Below are positions 33,782 through 63,527 of a stretch of DNA of 63,527 bases, in pieces. The stretch spans positions 1 to 63,527 of the forward strand of contig JAGVWA010000005.1 of NCBI GenBank assembly GCA_018304505.1, given 5' to 3'. Within the stretch, counting starts at the first letter, position 1. Each line of letters opens with the position of its first letter. Origin of the DNA: Nanobdellati archaeon (GTDB taxonomy: Archaea > B1Sed10-29 > JAGVWA01). The translations under genes and the position numbers were made by a program. Under the pieces are notes generated by a model. The model was given only the letters and a program-made list of their open reading frames with translations, made no database searches and was not told the DNA's origin.

Positions 33782-34249
33782 ATGTATCCCAAAGTTGGGG
33801 GTAAGGCGCCAGAATTTACATTGAAAAACCAAGACCACAAACCCGCGTTTTTGAAGGACTTTGCCGGAAAATGGCTCGTGCTCTACTTCTATCCAAAGGA
33901 CAACACTAGCGGCTGCACAGCCGAGGCGATTGATTTCACCAATGAGCTGACGAAAATCAATAGCATTGGAGCCAATGTACTTGGGGTCTCCCCAGATTCA
34001 GAGGATTCGCACTGCAAGTTCAGGGACAGGCACAGTCTTAAAGTGACGCTGCTTAGCGATCCTGACAAAACAGTTCTGGAAAAGTACGGCGTGTGGCAAG
34101 AGAAATCAATGTACGGCAGGAAATACATGGGCGTCGTCAGGACAACGTTTCTCATTGATCCGCAGGGCAAAGTTGCTCATGTTTGGGAAAAGGTCAAGGT
34201 TCCGGGGCATGTGCAGGACGTAATTGACACGCTAGCCAAACTAAAGTAA
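33782..34249 (+). CDS. bcp: peroxiredoxin, Bcp/PrxQ type, 1-Cys
   Basis: 155 aa thioredoxin-fold thiol peroxidase. KAPEFTLKNQD, FYPKDNTSGCTAEAIDF, LSDPDKTVLEKYGV and RTTFLIDPQGKVAHVWEKV are diagnostic. The peroxidatic Cys is in SGCTAEA; the usual resolving Cys five residues on is Ile, so it works as a 1-Cys enzyme needing an external thiol. Confidence 0.93.
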   Translation: MYPKVGGKAPEFTLKNQDHKPAFLKDFAGKWLVLYFYPKDNTSGCTAEAIDFTNELTKINSIGANVLGVSPDSEDSHCKFRDRHSLKVTLLSDPDKTVLEKYGVWQEKSMYGRKYMGVVRTTFLIDPQGKVAHVWEKVKVPGHVQDVIDTLAKLK

Positions 34250-34258
34250 ACCGACCCT

Positions 34259-34294
34259 GGTTTAAACTCGCGACGGTTGCAAAATCGATATATA
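34259..34294 (+). promoter_or_regulatory. GGTTTAAAC + TTGCAAAA-TATA promoter (copy c)
   Basis: GGTTTAAAC (34259-34267), 9 nt, TTGCAAAA (34277-34284) and TCGATATATA (34285-34294). Element order and spacing are the same as copy b at 2137. The start codon at 34317 is about 27 nt past the TATA centre, so the mRNA is leaderless. Confidence 0.65.
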
Positions 34295-46512: not shown

Positions 46513-47370
46513 ATGAAGGACAACCTCATCGAAGAAATACTACACAAGATCGGCATCGGGAAGGCCACAAAAAAGGAAACTGAGCAGCTTACGCTTGTTT
46601 ATGGACTCCCGACAAAAATAATGAGGCAGAGAAAAAAACTCAGAATGTCGCGGCGTGAACTCGCCAACAAGATCGGCACACTAGAAAGCGTAATAAGGGG
46701 GCTGGAGGAAGCACGTATAATCCCCGAAAAAGACGCAGTCCTAGACCTAGAAAAAGCCCTGGGAATTCCGCTCTACACCGAACACAAGCACGTCATACAG
46801 AAAATGAAAAGGCACCATGCGAAAGTCCAAAAGAAAATCCTAACCACCAAATACATGGACAAGCTCGAAACCAAGTTCTTTCCCAAAATCCGGGAAAAAT
46901 ACAAGGAAAAAGCCCGCCGGGCAAACACCCGTACCAAGACAGAGCCAACCAAAAAAACTGAAAAGAAAAAAACCCCAGCAAGAAAGGGCACAGCAAAACG
47001 GGCCAAACCGAAATCCCTGGCAGTCAAAAAAACTACACGCAAAAAACGAGTGCCTCACGCGCCCGCACCGAAACAGAACGCAGACATACAAAAGAAGCTC
47101 ATAAAAGGCATTCATGACACACTCGACATGCTGGCTGAACGCAACGCCGCAACTTCTTTAAAAAACGTGGCTTCTGCACTCGATGTCACTCAACAAGAAG
47201 TGATAGAAGAAATTGGGAACGTCATAACGCAAGATGACTTTAAAATGCCAAAAGGAACCAGCATCCTAATCGAAGGACCCATAGAATCACAAAAAGAAAC
47301 CTTCACACAAGAAATCATACAACACCACCTAGCCCGTAATAAACCGATTTTTGTCAGGCGAAGAACGTGA
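46513..47370 (+). CDS. HTH protein with degenerate KaiC-like N-lobe (first frame of a broken gene)
   Basis: 285 aa. Xre-type helix-turn-helix at residues 35-85 (MRQRKKLRMSRRELANKIGTLES), like MBF1 C-terminal domains; a Lys/Arg/Thr/Pro-rich linker (135-185); then SILIEGPIESQKETFTQEIIQHHLA. This last part has the shape of a KaiC Walker A strand-loop-helix but with GxxxSQKE, so ATP binding is probably lost. The frame ends soon after a TTTTT run at 47348-47352. Dropping one T joins it to the next frame. Confidence 0.75.
   Translation: MKDNLIEEILHKIGIGKATKKETEQLTLVYGLPTKIMRQRKKLRMSRRELANKIGTLESVIRGLEEARIIPEKDAVLDLEKALGIPLYTEHKHVIQKMKRHHAKVQKKILTTKYMDKLETKFFPKIREKYKEKARRANTRTKTEPTKKTEKKKTPARKGTAKRAKPKSLAVKKTTRKKRVPHAPAPKQNADIQKKLIKGIHDTLDMLAERNAATSLKNVASALDVTQQEVIEEIGNVITQDDFKMPKGTSILIEGPIESQKETFTQEIIQHHLARNKPIFVRRRT
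47224..47334 (+). repeat. R1 direct repeat, copy A (copy B at 47939-48049)
   Basis: About 111 bp encoding ITQDDFKMPKGTSILIEGP and the next 17 residues is repeated 715 bp downstream with only one or two base differences. Both copies are followed within 20 bp by a break of reading frame. Confidence 0.9.
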
Positions 47371-48109
47371 TGAAGCAGTCCGATTCATTAGCGCGAACAT
47401 CGACAAAATGAAAAGGAAAAACACAACGTCAATATTTTTGCTCCATTCCTCGATCGTTGACTCCAGACAACTAGCGTCAATAGAAACGCTTTTCGACGCA
47501 GTCATAACTTTCGAAACAAAACAGAATACGCGCGGCGAAGTCGAAAGCTACTACAAAATCAAAAGATTCAAAGGCCTAAACATCAAACCCCAACTGAAAA
47601 AATACAAGCCGCGGATTCTGCAAAAACAGACCGAACAAAAAATGCAGGAAACACCGCACGAAAATATTGTAACCCCCCCCAAACCGATTCAGAAAGCACG
47701 AGAAAAAGCGCCTCCACTAGAGATCCCCATACAAAGTTACACGTCCGGGGGAATACCAAAAGACATACCAAACGGCCTACAATCAGTTGATGACCAAGTC
47801 AGGGAAATACGCCAAGAAATCAGGGAAGAAAAACTCGTCGGCAACATAGACAAACTCCTCTCCGTCCTATCCCAAAAATCAGAAATCAACCTCAGCAAGA
47901 GCACGGAACAGGAGATCGTTGAGGAAATCGGAAACCTGATAACGCAAGACGACTTTAAAATGCCAAAAGGAACCAGCATCCTAATCGAAGGACCCATAGA
48001 ATCACAAAAAGAAACCTTCACACAAGAAATCATACAACACCACCTAGCCAAACCGAAACGTACAACATCAAAGACAACGGTCTCGTGCTGGCCCCCGCAG
48101 GCGAGATAA
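47351..48109 (+). CDS. KaiC-like C-lobe plus second N-lobe (middle frame of a broken gene)
   Basis: The frame opens with no convincing start codon (first possible TTG). It reads a KaiC-like C-lobe (TTSIFLLHSS, IETLFDAVITFETK, YYKIKRFKGLNIK), a Gln/Pro/Lys linker, a helical segment, then the R1 copy (SILIEGPIESQKETFTQEI), and ends shortly after. Adding one A at 48050-48052 joins it to the next frame. The distance between lobes is only 32 codons, too short for an intact domain. Best viewed as part of one gene spanning 46513-48822. Confidence 0.6.
   Translation: MSGEERDEAVRFISANIDKMKRKNTTSIFLLHSSIVDSRQLASIETLFDAVITFETKQNTRGEVESYYKIKRFKGLNIKPQLKKYKPRILQKQTEQKMQETPHENIVTPPKPIQKAREKAPPLEIPIQSYTSGGIPKDIPNGLQSVDDQVREIRQEIREEKLVGNIDKLLSVLSQKSEINLSKSTEQEIVEEIGNLITQDDFKMPKGTSILIEGPIESQKETFTQEIIQHHLAKPKRTTSKTTVSCWPPQAR
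47510..47612 (+). repeat. R2 direct repeat, copy A (copy B at 48346-48448)
   Basis: About 103 bp encoding FETKQN(T/A)RGEVESYYKIKR and GLNIKPQLKKYKP is repeated 836 bp downstream almost identically. The R1-to-R2 interval is 121 bp shorter in the first unit than in the second, so the units carry deletions of different size. Confidence 0.9.
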
Positions 48110-48822
48110 ACGAAACTAACCTGACAATATCAGAGCAAGTCTCTGAAGACCCTGTGCTCTTAGTGGCGAACGTTCTCAACGTCTTGCTCCCTAAGTACAA
48201 CATAGAGGAAATAACAAAATTCACGTCCTACAACTTAAGCAAGCTAAAAAAGTCCGCGATAACTTCCATCTTCACCCTAGATGACGAAATAACTTCGGTA
48301 GGCGAAAAGAGCGCACTCGAGACCTTGTTTGATGCGATCATCAGCTTCGAAACAAAACAAAATGCGCGCGGCGAAGTCGAAAGCTACTACAAAATCAAAA
48401 GATTCAAAGGCCTAAACATCAAACCCCAACTGAAAAAATACAAGCCGCAAACCCATATGGCCAAGACTAAAAAGGACGCCGAAAAACCACTAGAAGCCCC
48501 TTTAGTTGTTGAGGGCCTCGCGCCAGAATCAGCATCGATATCCCCAACACTCATGATGAAACTTCCGGCAAAAATCAGGAAAGAACCAGAAGAAAAAAAG
48601 CAATACCCGCAGGAAGTAGAAACAATTAAAATAACAACCGGGTTAGACCAACTATACCAGGTTATCCGAGACAAAAAGACAATCAGGATAGACGCCGCAG
48701 CAAAGGCACTGCAAGTTGATGAGGGCACGATCGAAACCTGGGCAAACATACTGGAAAAGCAAAACCTCGTCAAAATAAGGTACCCATCGTTTGGGAAAAC
48801 TATAATAAGCGTGATAAGATGA
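48085..48822 (+). CDS. KaiC-like C-lobe with C-terminal winged helix (last frame of a broken gene)
   Basis: Read from before the first in-frame start, it gives ETYNIKDNGLVLAPAGEINE, SKLKKSAITSIFTLDDEIT, LETLFDAIISFETK and YYKIKRFKGLNIK, a KaiC-like C-lobe. This is followed by a linker and a winged helix (TGLDQLYQVIRDKKTIRIDAAAKALQVDEGTIETWANILEKQNLV) of the type found before archaeal pilus ATPases. Overlaps tadA by 4 nt. If expressed alone it would be a wHTH protein. Confidence 0.65.
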   Translation: MLAPAGEINETNLTISEQVSEDPVLLVANVLNVLLPKYNIEEITKFTSYNLSKLKKSAITSIFTLDDEITSVGEKSALETLFDAIISFETKQNARGEVESYYKIKRFKGLNIKPQLKKYKPQTHMAKTKKDAEKPLEAPLVVEGLAPESASISPTLMMKLPAKIRKEPEEKKQYPQEVETIKITTGLDQLYQVIRDKKTIRIDAAAKALQVDEGTIETWANILEKQNLVKIRYPSFGKTIISVIR

Positions 48823-50378
48823 CTGTAATAGATGCATATGAAATACAAGATGGTGAACTAAAAAGCCGCGTAGAGATAACAGAAAACGAGGACTTCGTAA
48901 AACGATACAATCTATCGGCCCTCCGGATCGACATCGGAACCAGGGCCCTGCTTGACGAAATTAAGGGAGAACTCATCTCTACCGTAACGTTGCAATCCGT
49001 AGAAATAATAGATCCAAACAAGCTGCAGGAAATCAAAAACAAATTCTATGACCAAATAGTCGCAATGCTGCAGCGAAAGGTCCCGGGCCTTCCAGAAAAA
49101 GAAACGTCCCTCCTTGTACGCTTCTTGCTCAATGAAATGCTCGGCCTCGGAGAACTGGAACTCCTACTGAAAGATGACTACCTCGAAGACATCGCCATAA
49201 ATACCTCCACAGAGCCCGTCTGGGCATACCACAGAAAACACGGCTGGCTCAAGACCAACATTGTGGTGCCTACTGAAGAGGACATCAAAAACTATGCAGG
49301 CATAATCGCTAGACGAGTAGGCAGGCAGATCACGAACCTCAACCCCTTGTTAGATGCTCATTTAGTGACACAGGAAAGGGCCAACGCCGTCCTTAACCCT
49401 ATTTCGAGCAAGGGCAACCTAATCACCATTAGGAAGTTCGCAAAGGAACCATGGACAATAACAGACTTCATTAACAACCGTACGCTGAATTCAGAAGTAG
49501 CAGCACTCCTATGGCAGGCAATCCAATACGAACTCAACATACTCGTCAGTGGAGGCACGGGCTCTGGAAAGACGTCAATGCTCAGCGTACTGTTGCCATT
49601 CATTCAGCCAAACCAACGCATCGTTTCAATTGAAGACACACGCGAAATCCAGCTGCCAAAATTCCTGTTCTGGTCGCCACTAACGACAAGGCCACCGAAT
49701 ATTGACAAGCGCGGCGAGATCACGATGCTTGACTTAATGATCAACTCCCTTAGAATGCGGCCAGACAGGATCGTTGTTGGAGAAATAAGAAGAGAACGGG
49801 AAGCAGAAACACTGTTCGAGGCCATGCATACTGGCCACGCGGTATACGCCACACTGCACGCAGACACCATAGACCAAACAATAAATCGGCTGAAGAACCC
49901 ACCAATCAATATACACCCCTCGCTCCTTGGTGCCATCGACCTAAACCTTGTCATGTTCAGGGACAGGCGAAGCGGCATACGCAGACTGCTACAACTCGGC
50001 ACTTACAACGTTTCTGAAAGAACCGACGTATCACAAGTGAGGGCCAATGTGCTGTACAAATGGAATCCAACAGACGATGCACTTGAACCCACAATAAAAG
50101 CAAAATCAACAGCCATACAAAACAAAATCAGGACATATACAAGCCTGACAGAACAAGAGCTTAACGACGACCTAGCGCAAAAACAGGCGATCCTCAACTG
50201 GCTAGTGAAAAACAACACGCGAAAAGTGGATGACATTGGAAGGCTAATAGCGGAGTATTATCTGGACCCCTCCGTAATCGAAACAGCTGCAAACAAAAAT
50301 AAGCCCCCTGAAGAGCTCTTGACACAAACTGGCAGAGTGGAGACTGGAGAAAAGCCCATGGGAGCGAAGAAGAAATGA
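48819..50378 (+). CDS. tadA: type IV pilus assembly ATPase (TadA/FlaI/VirB11-like)
   Basis: 519 aa secretion ATPase. LVRFLLNEMLGLGELELLL, Walker A SGGTGSGKTSML, Asp box SIEDTREIQLP, Walker B RPDRIVVGEIRREREAETLFEAMHTGH and the His box ATLHADTIDQT. Powers pilin polymerisation from the cytosolic face. Four-base overlaps both ways show an operon with TadC proteins. Confidence 0.95.
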   Translation: MTVIDAYEIQDGELKSRVEITENEDFVKRYNLSALRIDIGTRALLDEIKGELISTVTLQSVEIIDPNKLQEIKNKFYDQIVAMLQRKVPGLPEKETSLLVRFLLNEMLGLGELELLLKDDYLEDIAINTSTEPVWAYHRKHGWLKTNIVVPTEEDIKNYAGIIARRVGRQITNLNPLLDAHLVTQERANAVLNPISSKGNLITIRKFAKEPWTITDFINNRTLNSEVAALLWQAIQYELNILVSGGTGSGKTSMLSVLLPFIQPNQRIVSIEDTREIQLPKFLFWSPLTTRPPNIDKRGEITMLDLMINSLRMRPDRIVVGEIRREREAETLFEAMHTGHAVYATLHADTIDQTINRLKNPPINIHPSLLGAIDLNLVMFRDRRSGIRRLLQLGTYNVSERTDVSQVRANVLYKWNPTDDALEPTIKAKSTAIQNKIRTYTSLTEQELNDDLAQKQAILNWLVKNNTRKVDDIGRLIAEYYLDPSVIETAANKNKPPEELLTQTGRVETGEKPMGAKKK

Positions 50379-54928: not shown

Positions 54929-55467
54929 TCACTGGCACGAAAGTCAACATGCGGCGTGTCGAAGAGCGCGACATCCCAACAGTGACGAACTGGCTCAACG
55001 ACCCAGGGTTTACTGGGCCGCATGCTGATTTTCCGACGCAGATTACGGAATTAGATTTGGCGAAACGCGTCTTGGGCCCTGTCAATGTCCTGGAGTGGAC
55101 CGACTACGTAATCGAAAACCAAAACCGCGAGGCTGTGGGCTGGGCATGCCATTACATCGACTCCTTGAATTTTAACTGGCACGAAATCGCATACGCAGTC
55201 CTGCCAAAGCACAGAAAACAGGGTTACGCGACAGAAGCGGCTCAGCTCTTAATTGATTATTTGTTCATGACAAAGGACATTCCCAGGATACAAGCGAAAA
55301 CCAACTCCACAAATGACTGGTCAATAAAGGTTTTGGAAAACGCTAACATGAAACGCGAAGGCGCACTAAGGAAAGCGATTTGGGTAAAGCCGGGCAAGTG
55401 GGCAGATGGCCTGATTTACGGAATTACCCGGGAAGACTGGGCAAAGCCACGACTTCTAAAAGCTTAA
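54925..55467 (+). CDS. GNAT-family N-acetyltransferase (RimJ/RimL type)
   Basis: 180 aa. EIAYAVLPKHRKQGYATEAAQLLIDYLF is the acetyl-CoA pyrophosphate loop, followed by RIQAKTNSTNDWSIKVLENANMKREGALRK. Acceptor unknown; the operon with agmatinase makes a polyamine or arginine derivative possible. Confidence 0.88.
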   Translation: MITGTKVNMRRVEERDIPTVTNWLNDPGFTGPHADFPTQITELDLAKRVLGPVNVLEWTDYVIENQNREAVGWACHYIDSLNFNWHEIAYAVLPKHRKQGYATEAAQLLIDYLFMTKDIPRIQAKTNSTNDWSIKVLENANMKREGALRKAIWVKPGKWADGLIYGITREDWAKPRLLKA

Positions 55468-55780
55468 GAAATAAACCCGCAGGGGTTGCAAAAGCATTAA
55501 ATACATTGTTTACCATAAGCATATGCGAGTGCGCGTTGTCATCTATCCTGTCATGCTGATAACCGGCACGCTGCGGCACTAATTCACGAAGCTTATTGAT
55601 GATGTCCTGCTTCAAGCCGGGCTCGTCTTCATTGATAATGATTCCGGTAGTGGCGTGCGGCGTGAAAACATTCACTAGGCCATTTTTTATTTTTGATTCA
55701 GTTAAGTGCTTTTGAATCTCAGCCGTGATGTTAACAAGCTCAAGGTGCTCCGTTGTATACAATTTGATAGTTTGTGCCAT
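55424..55780 (-). pseudogene. YjbQ-family protein, C-terminally truncated
   Basis: Residues 1-85 match YjbQ/UPF0047 (thiamin phosphate synthase-like): TPHATTGIIINEDEPGLKQDI, RAGYQHDRIDDNAHSHM. The normal continuation (SLLGPS, GTWQxIxLxEFDGPR; about 40 residues) is missing. After HSHM the frame runs 31 residues through an opposing promoter-like element (55486-55503) and into the end of the GNAT gene. The catalytic C-terminal part is lost, so it is probably inactive. Confidence 0.75.
55471..55503 (+). promoter_or_regulatory. TTGCAAAA-TATA promoter unit (copy d), orphaned
   Basis: ATAAAC, 9 nt, TTGCAAAA (55486-55493) and GCATTAAATA (55494-55503), with the same AAAC-to-TTGCAAAA spacing as copies b and c. 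An ATG follows at 55523 at leaderless distance, but the frame closes after 19 codons antisense to yjbQ. The gene it once drove appears deleted. Confidence 0.6.
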
Positions 55781-61030: not shown

Positions 61031-62143
61031 ATGCTAAGCAAAACGGCTAGGGACGAGCTAGAAAAACAGCACTACCGCATAGTCGGCGACCACAGCGCAG
61101 TAAAGACCTGCGGCTGGACCAAGAAGATGCTCAAGGGCGAAGGCGGCTGCTACAAACTAAAGTTCTACGGCATCATGAGTCACCAGTGCATGCAAATGAC
61201 TACATCAATCAGCTGCGCCAACCGCTGCACGTTCTGCTGGCGAGGCTACAAGGCCCCGGTTTCGAAAGAATGGAAGTGGCAAGTCAACGACCCTGAAATG
61301 ATTTTTGAGGAATCGAAAAAGGCGCACGAGAAACTCCTGCTTGGATACGGGGGCAACGCCAAGGTAACAAAAAGCATGTACACGCAGTCAAAGGACATAA
61401 AACACGTGGCTCTGTCCCTTACCGGGGAACCCATAATCTATCCGCGCATGAACGAGCTCATCGGCATGTTCAACCGCGATGGAATATCAACGTTCCTTGT
61501 AACCAATGCACAGTACGCCGAGCAGATACGGGACTTGAAACCCATTACTCAATTATACATCAGCGTTGACGCGCCAAACAAAGAATTACTAAAACAAGTC
61601 GACGTGCCCTTGTTTCCTGACTACTGGGAGCGCCTAAACCAGAGCCTGGATTACATGCGCCAAAAAAAACAGAGGACATGTATACGATTGACGTGCATCA
61701 GGGGCATCAACATGGTAGAGCCAGAAAACTATGCCGCGCTGATTGAACGCGGGAACCCGGACTTCCTTGAGGTCAAGGCGTACATGTTCGTCGGCGCGTC
61801 GCGCGAAAGGCTGTCGATGGACAACATGCCAAGCCACGCAGATGTTCTCGCGTTTACAAAGCAGCTCACCAAATACCTGCCTGACTACGAAATCGTTTCA
61901 GAACACAAGCCGTCACGGGTGTTCATGCTGGCGAAAAAGAAGTTCAAGCGCAACGGCAAGTGGTTTACGTGGATCGACTTTCCAAAATACCACGAACTGG
62001 CATTGCAAGGCGACGATTTCACTACTGAGGATTACCTGAAGGTGACCCCAAAGACAGGCATCGACGACTCCGAAATAAAAGTTGACGAAAAGACTGAGGA
62101 ATTGGAGTTCTGGAAAGCGCAGGAAAATCAGGTAACGATCTAA
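61031..62143 (+). CDS. taw1: tRNA 4-demethylwyosine synthase
   Basis: 370 aa radical SAM enzyme acting at G37 of tRNA-Phe. TTSISCANRCTFCWRGYKAP holds the SAM cluster CxxxCxxC. VALSLTGEPIIYPRMNELIGMF, FLVTNAQYAEQ, QLYISVDAPN and LEVKAYMFVGASRERL are family motifs. A second N-terminal Cys set (KTCGWT, GGCYKLKFYG, QCMQM) probably binds the auxiliary cluster. Confidence 0.95.
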   Translation: MLSKTARDELEKQHYRIVGDHSAVKTCGWTKKMLKGEGGCYKLKFYGIMSHQCMQMTTSISCANRCTFCWRGYKAPVSKEWKWQVNDPEMIFEESKKAHEKLLLGYGGNAKVTKSMYTQSKDIKHVALSLTGEPIIYPRMNELIGMFNRDGISTFLVTNAQYAEQIRDLKPITQLYISVDAPNKELLKQVDVPLFPDYWERLNQSLDYMRQKKQRTCIRLTCIRGINMVEPENYAALIERGNPDFLEVKAYMFVGASRERLSMDNMPSHADVLAFTKQLTKYLPDYEIVSEHKPSRVFMLAKKKFKRNGKWFTWIDFPKYHELALQGDDFTTEDYLKVTPKTGIDDSEIKVDEKTEELEFWKAQENQVTI

Positions 62144-62195
62144 CCTAGCGCCAATACACAAAATCATTAAAAACACCAATAACATAAAGAACACC

Positions 62196-63527
62196 ATGGA
62201 GCATAGTTCCACAACCCGAGCAGCAAAGACCAAGAAGAAACCAACCCTAAACCAACAACAAGAAGCCGCACGCAGAGCAACACTAGCGAGACTACAAACG
62301 CTCCAAAAAAAAGCACATGCTAAAGAAATCAAGCTCGGCGCACTCAAAAGATTAGCGCTAGCCCGACGCATCAAACAACTGCAAAGAGAAAAGATAACGC
62401 TGCGAACTCTTGCACAAGCAGAAAAAGCCGAACCACGACTAGCCGCAGCAGCAAAGCCAACATCAAGACCAATGCCTAAGCCAAGAAAAATAAGGACTCC
62501 ACAAACAACAAGATCAAGAACAATCGCCCCCGTAGCCAAGCCAGCGCCAACAGCAACTAAACCTGCTGCAAGACCAACCAGTCCAATAGCAATAAAACCA
62601 AGACACCCACCCACAAGACTAACACGATTTTTCAGAGAACCAACACCCCCTACAGGGGGGGGTATAACGCCAAGCGCGGCAAGACCACAACTCCCCGGGG
62701 GAAGGGTTCCGCTGCGCCTCGACACGCGAGCAGAATTACGACTAGGACCATTAGAAAAAGCAGCTGAAAAGGAAAAAGCAGAAACCGCAAAGGCAATAAA
62801 AGAAAAACAAGAAGCAGAAAAAGCATTAGATGACCTACTCGCAAAAGCAGAAGTCGAACTAAAGCCAGAATACAAGCAGGCCCTCACAACAAAAGAAGTC
62901 ATGGACTTCGCACAACAACTCACAACAGACACTGCAAGGCAATACTTCGACGCAATCGCGCGACACGGAACAGAAAAACTCACCACCAAAGAATTCATGG
63001 ACTTCACCCAACAACTCCCACCAAACACTGCAGAACAATACTTCAACGCAATCGCGCGACACGGAACAGAAAAACTCACAACAAAAGAAGTCATGGACTT
63101 CGCCCAACAACTCACAACAGACACTGCAAGGCAATACTTCAACGCAATCGCGCGACACGGAACAGAAAAACTCACAACCAAAGAAGTTCTAACCACAGAA
63201 GTAGCAAAATTCGCACAACAACTAGACTACGGTGCAAGGTATTACTTCAACGCAATCGCGCGACACGGAACAGAAAAACTCACAACCAAAGAAATCATGG
63301 ACTTCACCCAACAACTCCCACCAAACACTACATGGCAATACTTCAACGCAATCGCAAAACACGGGGTGGAGCGACTAGTAAGCAAAGGATTTGTTACTGG
63401 CGTTGGTCGTGTTTTTGATGGCTTTGTGACGACAGAAGCCATGAGAAGCACATTTATGGATAATTTACTCACCATTGATGACAGGATTTCTGAACGAGTC
63501 ATGAGCCAAACCGAAAGCGCCAGCAGA
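62196..63527 (+). CDS. repeat protein with basic disordered head (partial, runs off window)
   Basis: 444 codons are open to the window edge. Residues 1-185 are Lys/Arg/Ala/Pro-rich and low in complexity. A helix (LEKAAEKEKAETAKAIKEKQEAEKAL) follows at 188-215, then five near-identical repeats of 32 or 35 residues (230-393, TTKEVMDFAQQL..QYFNAIARHG), then a unique part. The repeats look like helical hairpins, as in armadillo/TPR-type scaffolds. GAACACC precedes the ATG. I do not recognise the family. Confidence 0.7.
   Translation, partial: MEHSSTTRAAKTKKKPTLNQQQEAARRATLARLQTLQKKAHAKEIKLGALKRLALARRIKQLQREKITLRTLAQAEKAEPRLAAAAKPTSRPMPKPRKIRTPQTTRSRTIAPVAKPAPTATKPAARPTSPIAIKPRHPPTRLTRFFREPTPPTGGGITPSAARPQLPGGRVPLRLDTRAELRLGPLEKAAEKEKAETAKAIKEKQEAEKALDDLLAKAEVELKPEYKQALTTKEVMDFAQQLTTDTARQYFDAIARHGTEKLTTKEFMDFTQQLPPNTAEQYFNAIARHGTEKLTTKEVMDFAQQLTTDTARQYFNAIARHGTEKLTTKEVLTTEVAKFAQQLDYGARYYFNAIARHGTEKLTTKEIMDFTQQLPPNTTWQYFNAIAKHGVERLVSKGFVTGVGRVFDGFVTTEAMRSTFMDNLLTIDDRISERVMSQTESASR
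62886..63374 (+). repeat. five in-frame tandem repeats (96/105 bp)
   Basis: Units at 62886, 62982, 63078, 63174 (105 bp, with a 3-residue insertion) and 63279. Alternate units share more: 1 and 3 carry AQQLTTDTARQ, while 2 and 5 carry TQQLPPNT. This suggests expansion by two-unit duplication. Coding constraint is clear, so this is not a CRISPR. Confidence 0.9.

Follow-up and report, generated by a model that had tools for sequence, protein, structure and literature searches.

A tandem KaiC-like gene beside an archaeal pilus ATPase, almost certainly broken twice by short-read assembly

Gene layout and repeats of the locus

The window analyzed here is the whole of contig C19 (63,527 nucleotides), taken from a 917-kb, 21-contig metagenome-assembled archaeal genome labelled G000. 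At positions 46513-48822, three open reading frames, which occupy frame 1, then 2, then 1 again (position mod 3), jointly encode an HTH_3 domain and a lysine-rich linker, followed by a pair of KaiC-like domains and a winged helix. Two repeated blocks, R1 and R2, accompany this arrangement. The features are as follows.

46513-47370, plus strand: ORF fragment 1, with HTH_3 (E=9.8e-6), Lys-rich linker, small helical segment and the N-terminal part of KaiC-like domain 1
47236-47334, plus strand: R1 copy 1, exact over 99 bp, a length equal to the contig-end overlap of the assembly; the frame breaks directly after it
47335-47352, plus strand: break 1, probably a join lacking about 52 residues of coding sequence; frame 1 to 2 (mod 3)
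47348-48058, plus strand: coding stretch 2, with the C-terminal part of domain 1, a linker and the N-terminal part of domain 2
47529-47612, plus strand: R2 copy 1, exact over 84 bp, under the word limit; frame uninterrupted
47951-48049, plus strand: R1 copy 2, exact over 99 bp
48050-48062, plus strand: break 2, probably a join lacking about 13 residues; frame 2 to 1 (mod 3)
48055-48822, plus strand: coding stretch 3, with the remainder of KaiC-like domain 2 and the C-terminal winged helix
48365-48448, plus strand: R2 copy 2, exact over 84 bp; frame uninterrupted
48819-50378, plus strand: TadA/GspE-like secretion ATPase, intact (T2SSE, E=5.5e-35); its start overlaps the end of the broken gene

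The domain order (HTH, KaiC-like, KaiC-like, winged HTH) and the position directly before TadA agree with those of the initial annotation of this DNA. Its spacings of 715 and 836 bp between the copies of R1 and R2 were likewise measured here, and the 121-bp shortfall of the unit 1 interval follows from them. The repeat lengths it gave (111 and 103 bp) required correction: 47236-47334 is identical to 47951-48049 and 47529-47612 to 48365-48448, giving exact lengths of 99 bp for R1 and 84 bp for R2. With mismatches allowed, R1 reaches 148 bp at 91% and R2 135 bp at 89%. As had been noticed, each R1 copy is followed in less than 20 bp by a frame break, the first next to TTTTT (~47349) and the second next to AAA (~48056). 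Coding signal is kept up to and past both breaks, free of further stops, and the pilin-like and Tad-like genes surrounding the broken gene are intact. The motif GPIESQKE, a degenerate Walker A, occurs twice in the window, once per KaiC-like domain, so that both domains depart from the consensus as first proposed.

The two domain units were compared over the 16 codons adjoining R1 and the 16 adjoining R2. In these flanks 22 codons are changed, 15 synonymously and 7 non-synonymously. The predominance of synonymous changes argues that both units are under constraint as coding sequence. Synonymous differences fall to zero within R1 (33 codons) and within R2 (27-28 codons), and these identical blocks probably reflect recent gene conversion between the domain units.

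Elsewhere in the window, an intergenic motif, TAAACC...TGGTTTAAACC ... GTTGCAAAATCGATAAATA, is dispersed at 2125-2172, 34247-34294 and 55456-55503, and a similar sequence, TGGTTTAAACCAGTTG, is present in another contig (L068, ~6141).

An intact homologue in a related genome

A homologue was found in G014 (JAFGGZ010000056.1), a separate assembly of a Candidatus Diapherotrites archaeon of the same class. It is a single frame of 825 aa with both domains complete, and it occupies the same operon slot before a TadA-like ATPase with which the window's ATPase shares 53% identity. Along this protein, a Lys-rich segment is followed by two C2H2 zinc fingers, then by the pair of KaiC-like domains and lastly by a winged helix; the Walker A positions read GSVESAKT and GPGDSMKY. 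Pfam KaiC matched the whole G014 protein with E=6e-10, and no KaiC match above cut-off was obtained with the broken window fragments.

Alignment to domain 1 of the G014 protein indicates what the assembled locus lacks: unit 1 is short of 52 consecutive residues and unit 2 of about 13, both gaps beginning right after R1. A model of G014 domain 1 (pLDDT 74.5) superimposes on KaiC (8dba) with a Z score of 18.5 over 183 residues at an rmsd of 2.9. The segment missing from unit 1 spans two central strands of this model, and for that reason unit 1 as assembled could hardly fold. The initial annotation had suggested that mending one base in each unit would restore a single protein. Such mending does open the frame, but the product would not be a normal protein, as it would continue to lack these residues, which the intact homologue has.

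The initial annotation had also proposed an examination of homologues in relatives, and had named independent reads with one continuous frame and full-length domains, indicating assembly collapse, as the outcome that would speak against its reading. The G014 protein largely supplies that outcome, the evidence coming from a related genome rather than from reads of this organism.

Searches of the bin with the window DNA and the intact homologue returned this locus and more distant KaiC/RecA relatives only, and the missing pieces were not found there. A scan of GTDB r220 contigs returned the G014 record only, and a search of the PDB by sequence gave nothing significant. Among the 19 genomes of the class, the tandem KaiC-like pair was found in two, G000 and G014. 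A further gene of the G014 genome (C32, L033 1468-2685) encodes 406 aa, in which a probable membrane segment precedes a degenerate KaiC-like domain (GPPESEKH); an HSP20-like gene is its neighbour.

Repeat lengths, contig ends and the origin of the breaks

Exact repeats were surveyed over 758 kb of the 917-kb genome. None exceeds 100 bp, two measure 100 bp and eleven measure exactly 99 bp. Seven of these eleven are a contig end overlapping another contig end (C18 end/C19 start, C19 end/C7 end, C16/C4, C14/C2, C13/C5, C11/C9 and C11/C13). Because of this ceiling and these shared ends, we take 99 bp to be the word-length overlap of the assembler; overlaps of this length are what a de Bruijn assembly leaves when its largest word is about 99-100. 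Chen et al. (2020, PMC7111523) described scaffold ends that overlap by n or n-1, n being the largest k-mer, together with local assembly errors that yield wrong protein sequences.

The remaining four 99-bp repeats are internal: R1 itself and those of C5, C12 and C17. In geometry R1 matches the C11/C9 and C19/C7 ends, where a one-base difference between similar sequences is followed by exactly 99 identical bp. All six internal pairs of 99 or 100 bp show a frame or gene break at the edge of at least one copy, with both copies broken at R1 and at C7:39590. The edge of the C5 repeat cuts a PIN-like gene (identified by eye from its translation), the coding frame changes at the edge of the C17 repeat, the C7:29647 pair is also broken, and the C12 repeat involves a stray copy of a gene tail. 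Coding repeats under the limit remain in frame through both copies; these are R2 (84 bp), C3:117507 (78 bp), C7:40687 (77 bp) and C19:63135 (51 bp). Little can be read from several other short repeats, which either do not code or overlap a disturbed part of C7.

Other likely assembly errors in this genome lie at C5:34668/35371, C12:6060/7232, C17:4451/6168, C7:29647/30889 and C7:39590/39948. At 62136-63527 of the window, an ORF rich in repeats continues past the end of the contig; its final 99 bp are identical to the end of C7, and there too a similar repeat gene is disturbed.

Taken with the relative that carries the same two-domain pilus-operon protein intact, these observations indicate that the doubly broken look of the gene is almost certainly a short-read assembly artefact. 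We consider it very probable that the locus holds one intact gene of about 830 aa, encoding an HTH, two degenerate KaiC/RecA-like domains and a winged helix within a Tad-like type IV pilus operon, that was mis-assembled twice. The two domain repeats would share, from 47236 and 47951, a stretch whose identity extends over the word length of the assembler (99-100 bp) or more, and the likely reason that the assembler met a repeat here is that recent gene conversion had made the blocks identical. The assembly graph would have been ambiguous at the end of R1, where the pieces were probably joined onward rather than ending as they do at contig ends, and the joins would have lost about 52 codons from unit 1 and about 13 from unit 2. 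That the two missing stretches differ in length speaks against an artefact. We infer the intactness of this organism's own gene from the assembly limit, the other broken repeats and the homologue.

The breaks could instead be genuine, the gene being a recently inactivated pseudogene with two real internal deletions that each begin just after R1. At each junction a short overlap is possible, as slippage would leave, and neither junction is contradicted by reads. This reading nevertheless calls for two independent deletions that both start exactly at the 99-bp limit common to the contig ends, while the other 99/100-bp repeats break alike. A gene decaying in this way would also have to be reconciled with the freedom from other stops, the mostly synonymous unit-to-unit changes and the intact pilus genes around it, and we regard a pseudogene as quite unlikely. 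The initial annotation had considered the breaks too alike for random base errors, and in this it was right, the common break point being the word-overlap limit. Its preference for nested deletions or switching finds no support, given that limit and the like breakage of other loci that reach it.

Programmed frameshifting or split proteins, in which the cell reads across real breaks, is highly improbable. Short homopolymer runs do adjoin the breaks, but the shifts needed run in opposite directions, so one recoding signal cannot serve both, and recoding was rejected on this ground; a joined product would moreover still lack both missing segments, RecA-fold core strands included. A phase-variable or copy-number switch through R1/R2 recombination is exceedingly unlikely and was likewise rejected: the absence of synonymous changes within the blocks suggests that exchange between units probably occurred, but R1 x R1 recombination would delete a whole unit where these breaks take out parts of domains, an inverted arrangement was looked for and not found, and the homologue is without such variation.

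The assembly error favored here resembles those reported by Chen et al. (2020, PMC7111523) in that the scaffold-end overlap equals the word limit and genes are broken at repeats, and differs in having been deduced from the assembled sequence. A repeat lying right at the short-read word limit can thus imitate striking biology, here two breaks at the same place, and a simple test, needing only sequence, is to ask whether the repeat is as long as the stretch shared by contig ends. Other genes at 99/100-bp repeats of this genome call for the same caution.

The predicted protein and its relation to known systems

What is real beyond the breaks is a protein, encoded next to a pilus ATPase, in which two putatively inactive KaiC-like domains are fused to a winged helix. 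The structural comparison and the Pfam match of the G014 protein place it within the KaiC/RecA-like fold. The Walker A consensus of active ATPases, GxxxxGK[ST], is absent from all four domains inspected (two in the window, two in G014). A FlaH/ArlH protein would carry one KaiC-like domain and a functional Walker A; here there are two domains and both are degenerate. Correctly read, the protein is a modest curiosity that may serve a pilus ATPase as an inactive partner.

In the archaellum, FlaH supports FlaI. By analogy, the likeliest role of the present protein would be to scaffold or regulate the pilus ATPase without hydrolysing ATP itself. We put forward more tentatively, as a possibility we would not favor, that the tandem inactive KaiC-like domains and winged helix constitute a lineage-specific, non-hydrolysing FlaH counterpart that regulates or scaffolds the Tad-like pilus ATPase in Diapherotrites-type archaea.

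Elsewhere in the class (G003, G004 and G005), the position upstream of TadA is taken by a winged-helix protein that often also contains a coiled coil; the slot is the same and the winged helix similar, but KaiC-like domains are lacking. G000 itself encodes a second TadA-like ATPase (C5:8390-10653, L111; one in-frame TAG inside the match), with a similar winged-helix protein, lacking KaiC domains, directly upstream.

Comparison with FlaH/ArlH, the KaiC-like partner of the archaellum ATPase FlaI, reveals a shared KaiC-like fold (Foldseek matches include FlaH 4wia and 4yds) and a shared position next to a motor ATPase. The protein differs in its two domains instead of one, its degenerate Walker A, its additional HTH and winged helix, and its setting in a Tad-like pilus operon and not, as far as seen, an archaellum operon. 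The presence of two KaiC domains per chain is a feature of KaiC itself. KaiC-family ATPases have been linked to archaeal type IV pili (Makarova et al. 2016, PMC4858521), and the present protein resembles those families in being KaiC-like and encoded near a T4P operon. Since such proteins near archaeal pili are already described, we regard it as a variant and not a new kind. Those families are termed ATPases, whereas here none of the four domains seen keeps an intact Walker A, and a winged helix ends the chain.
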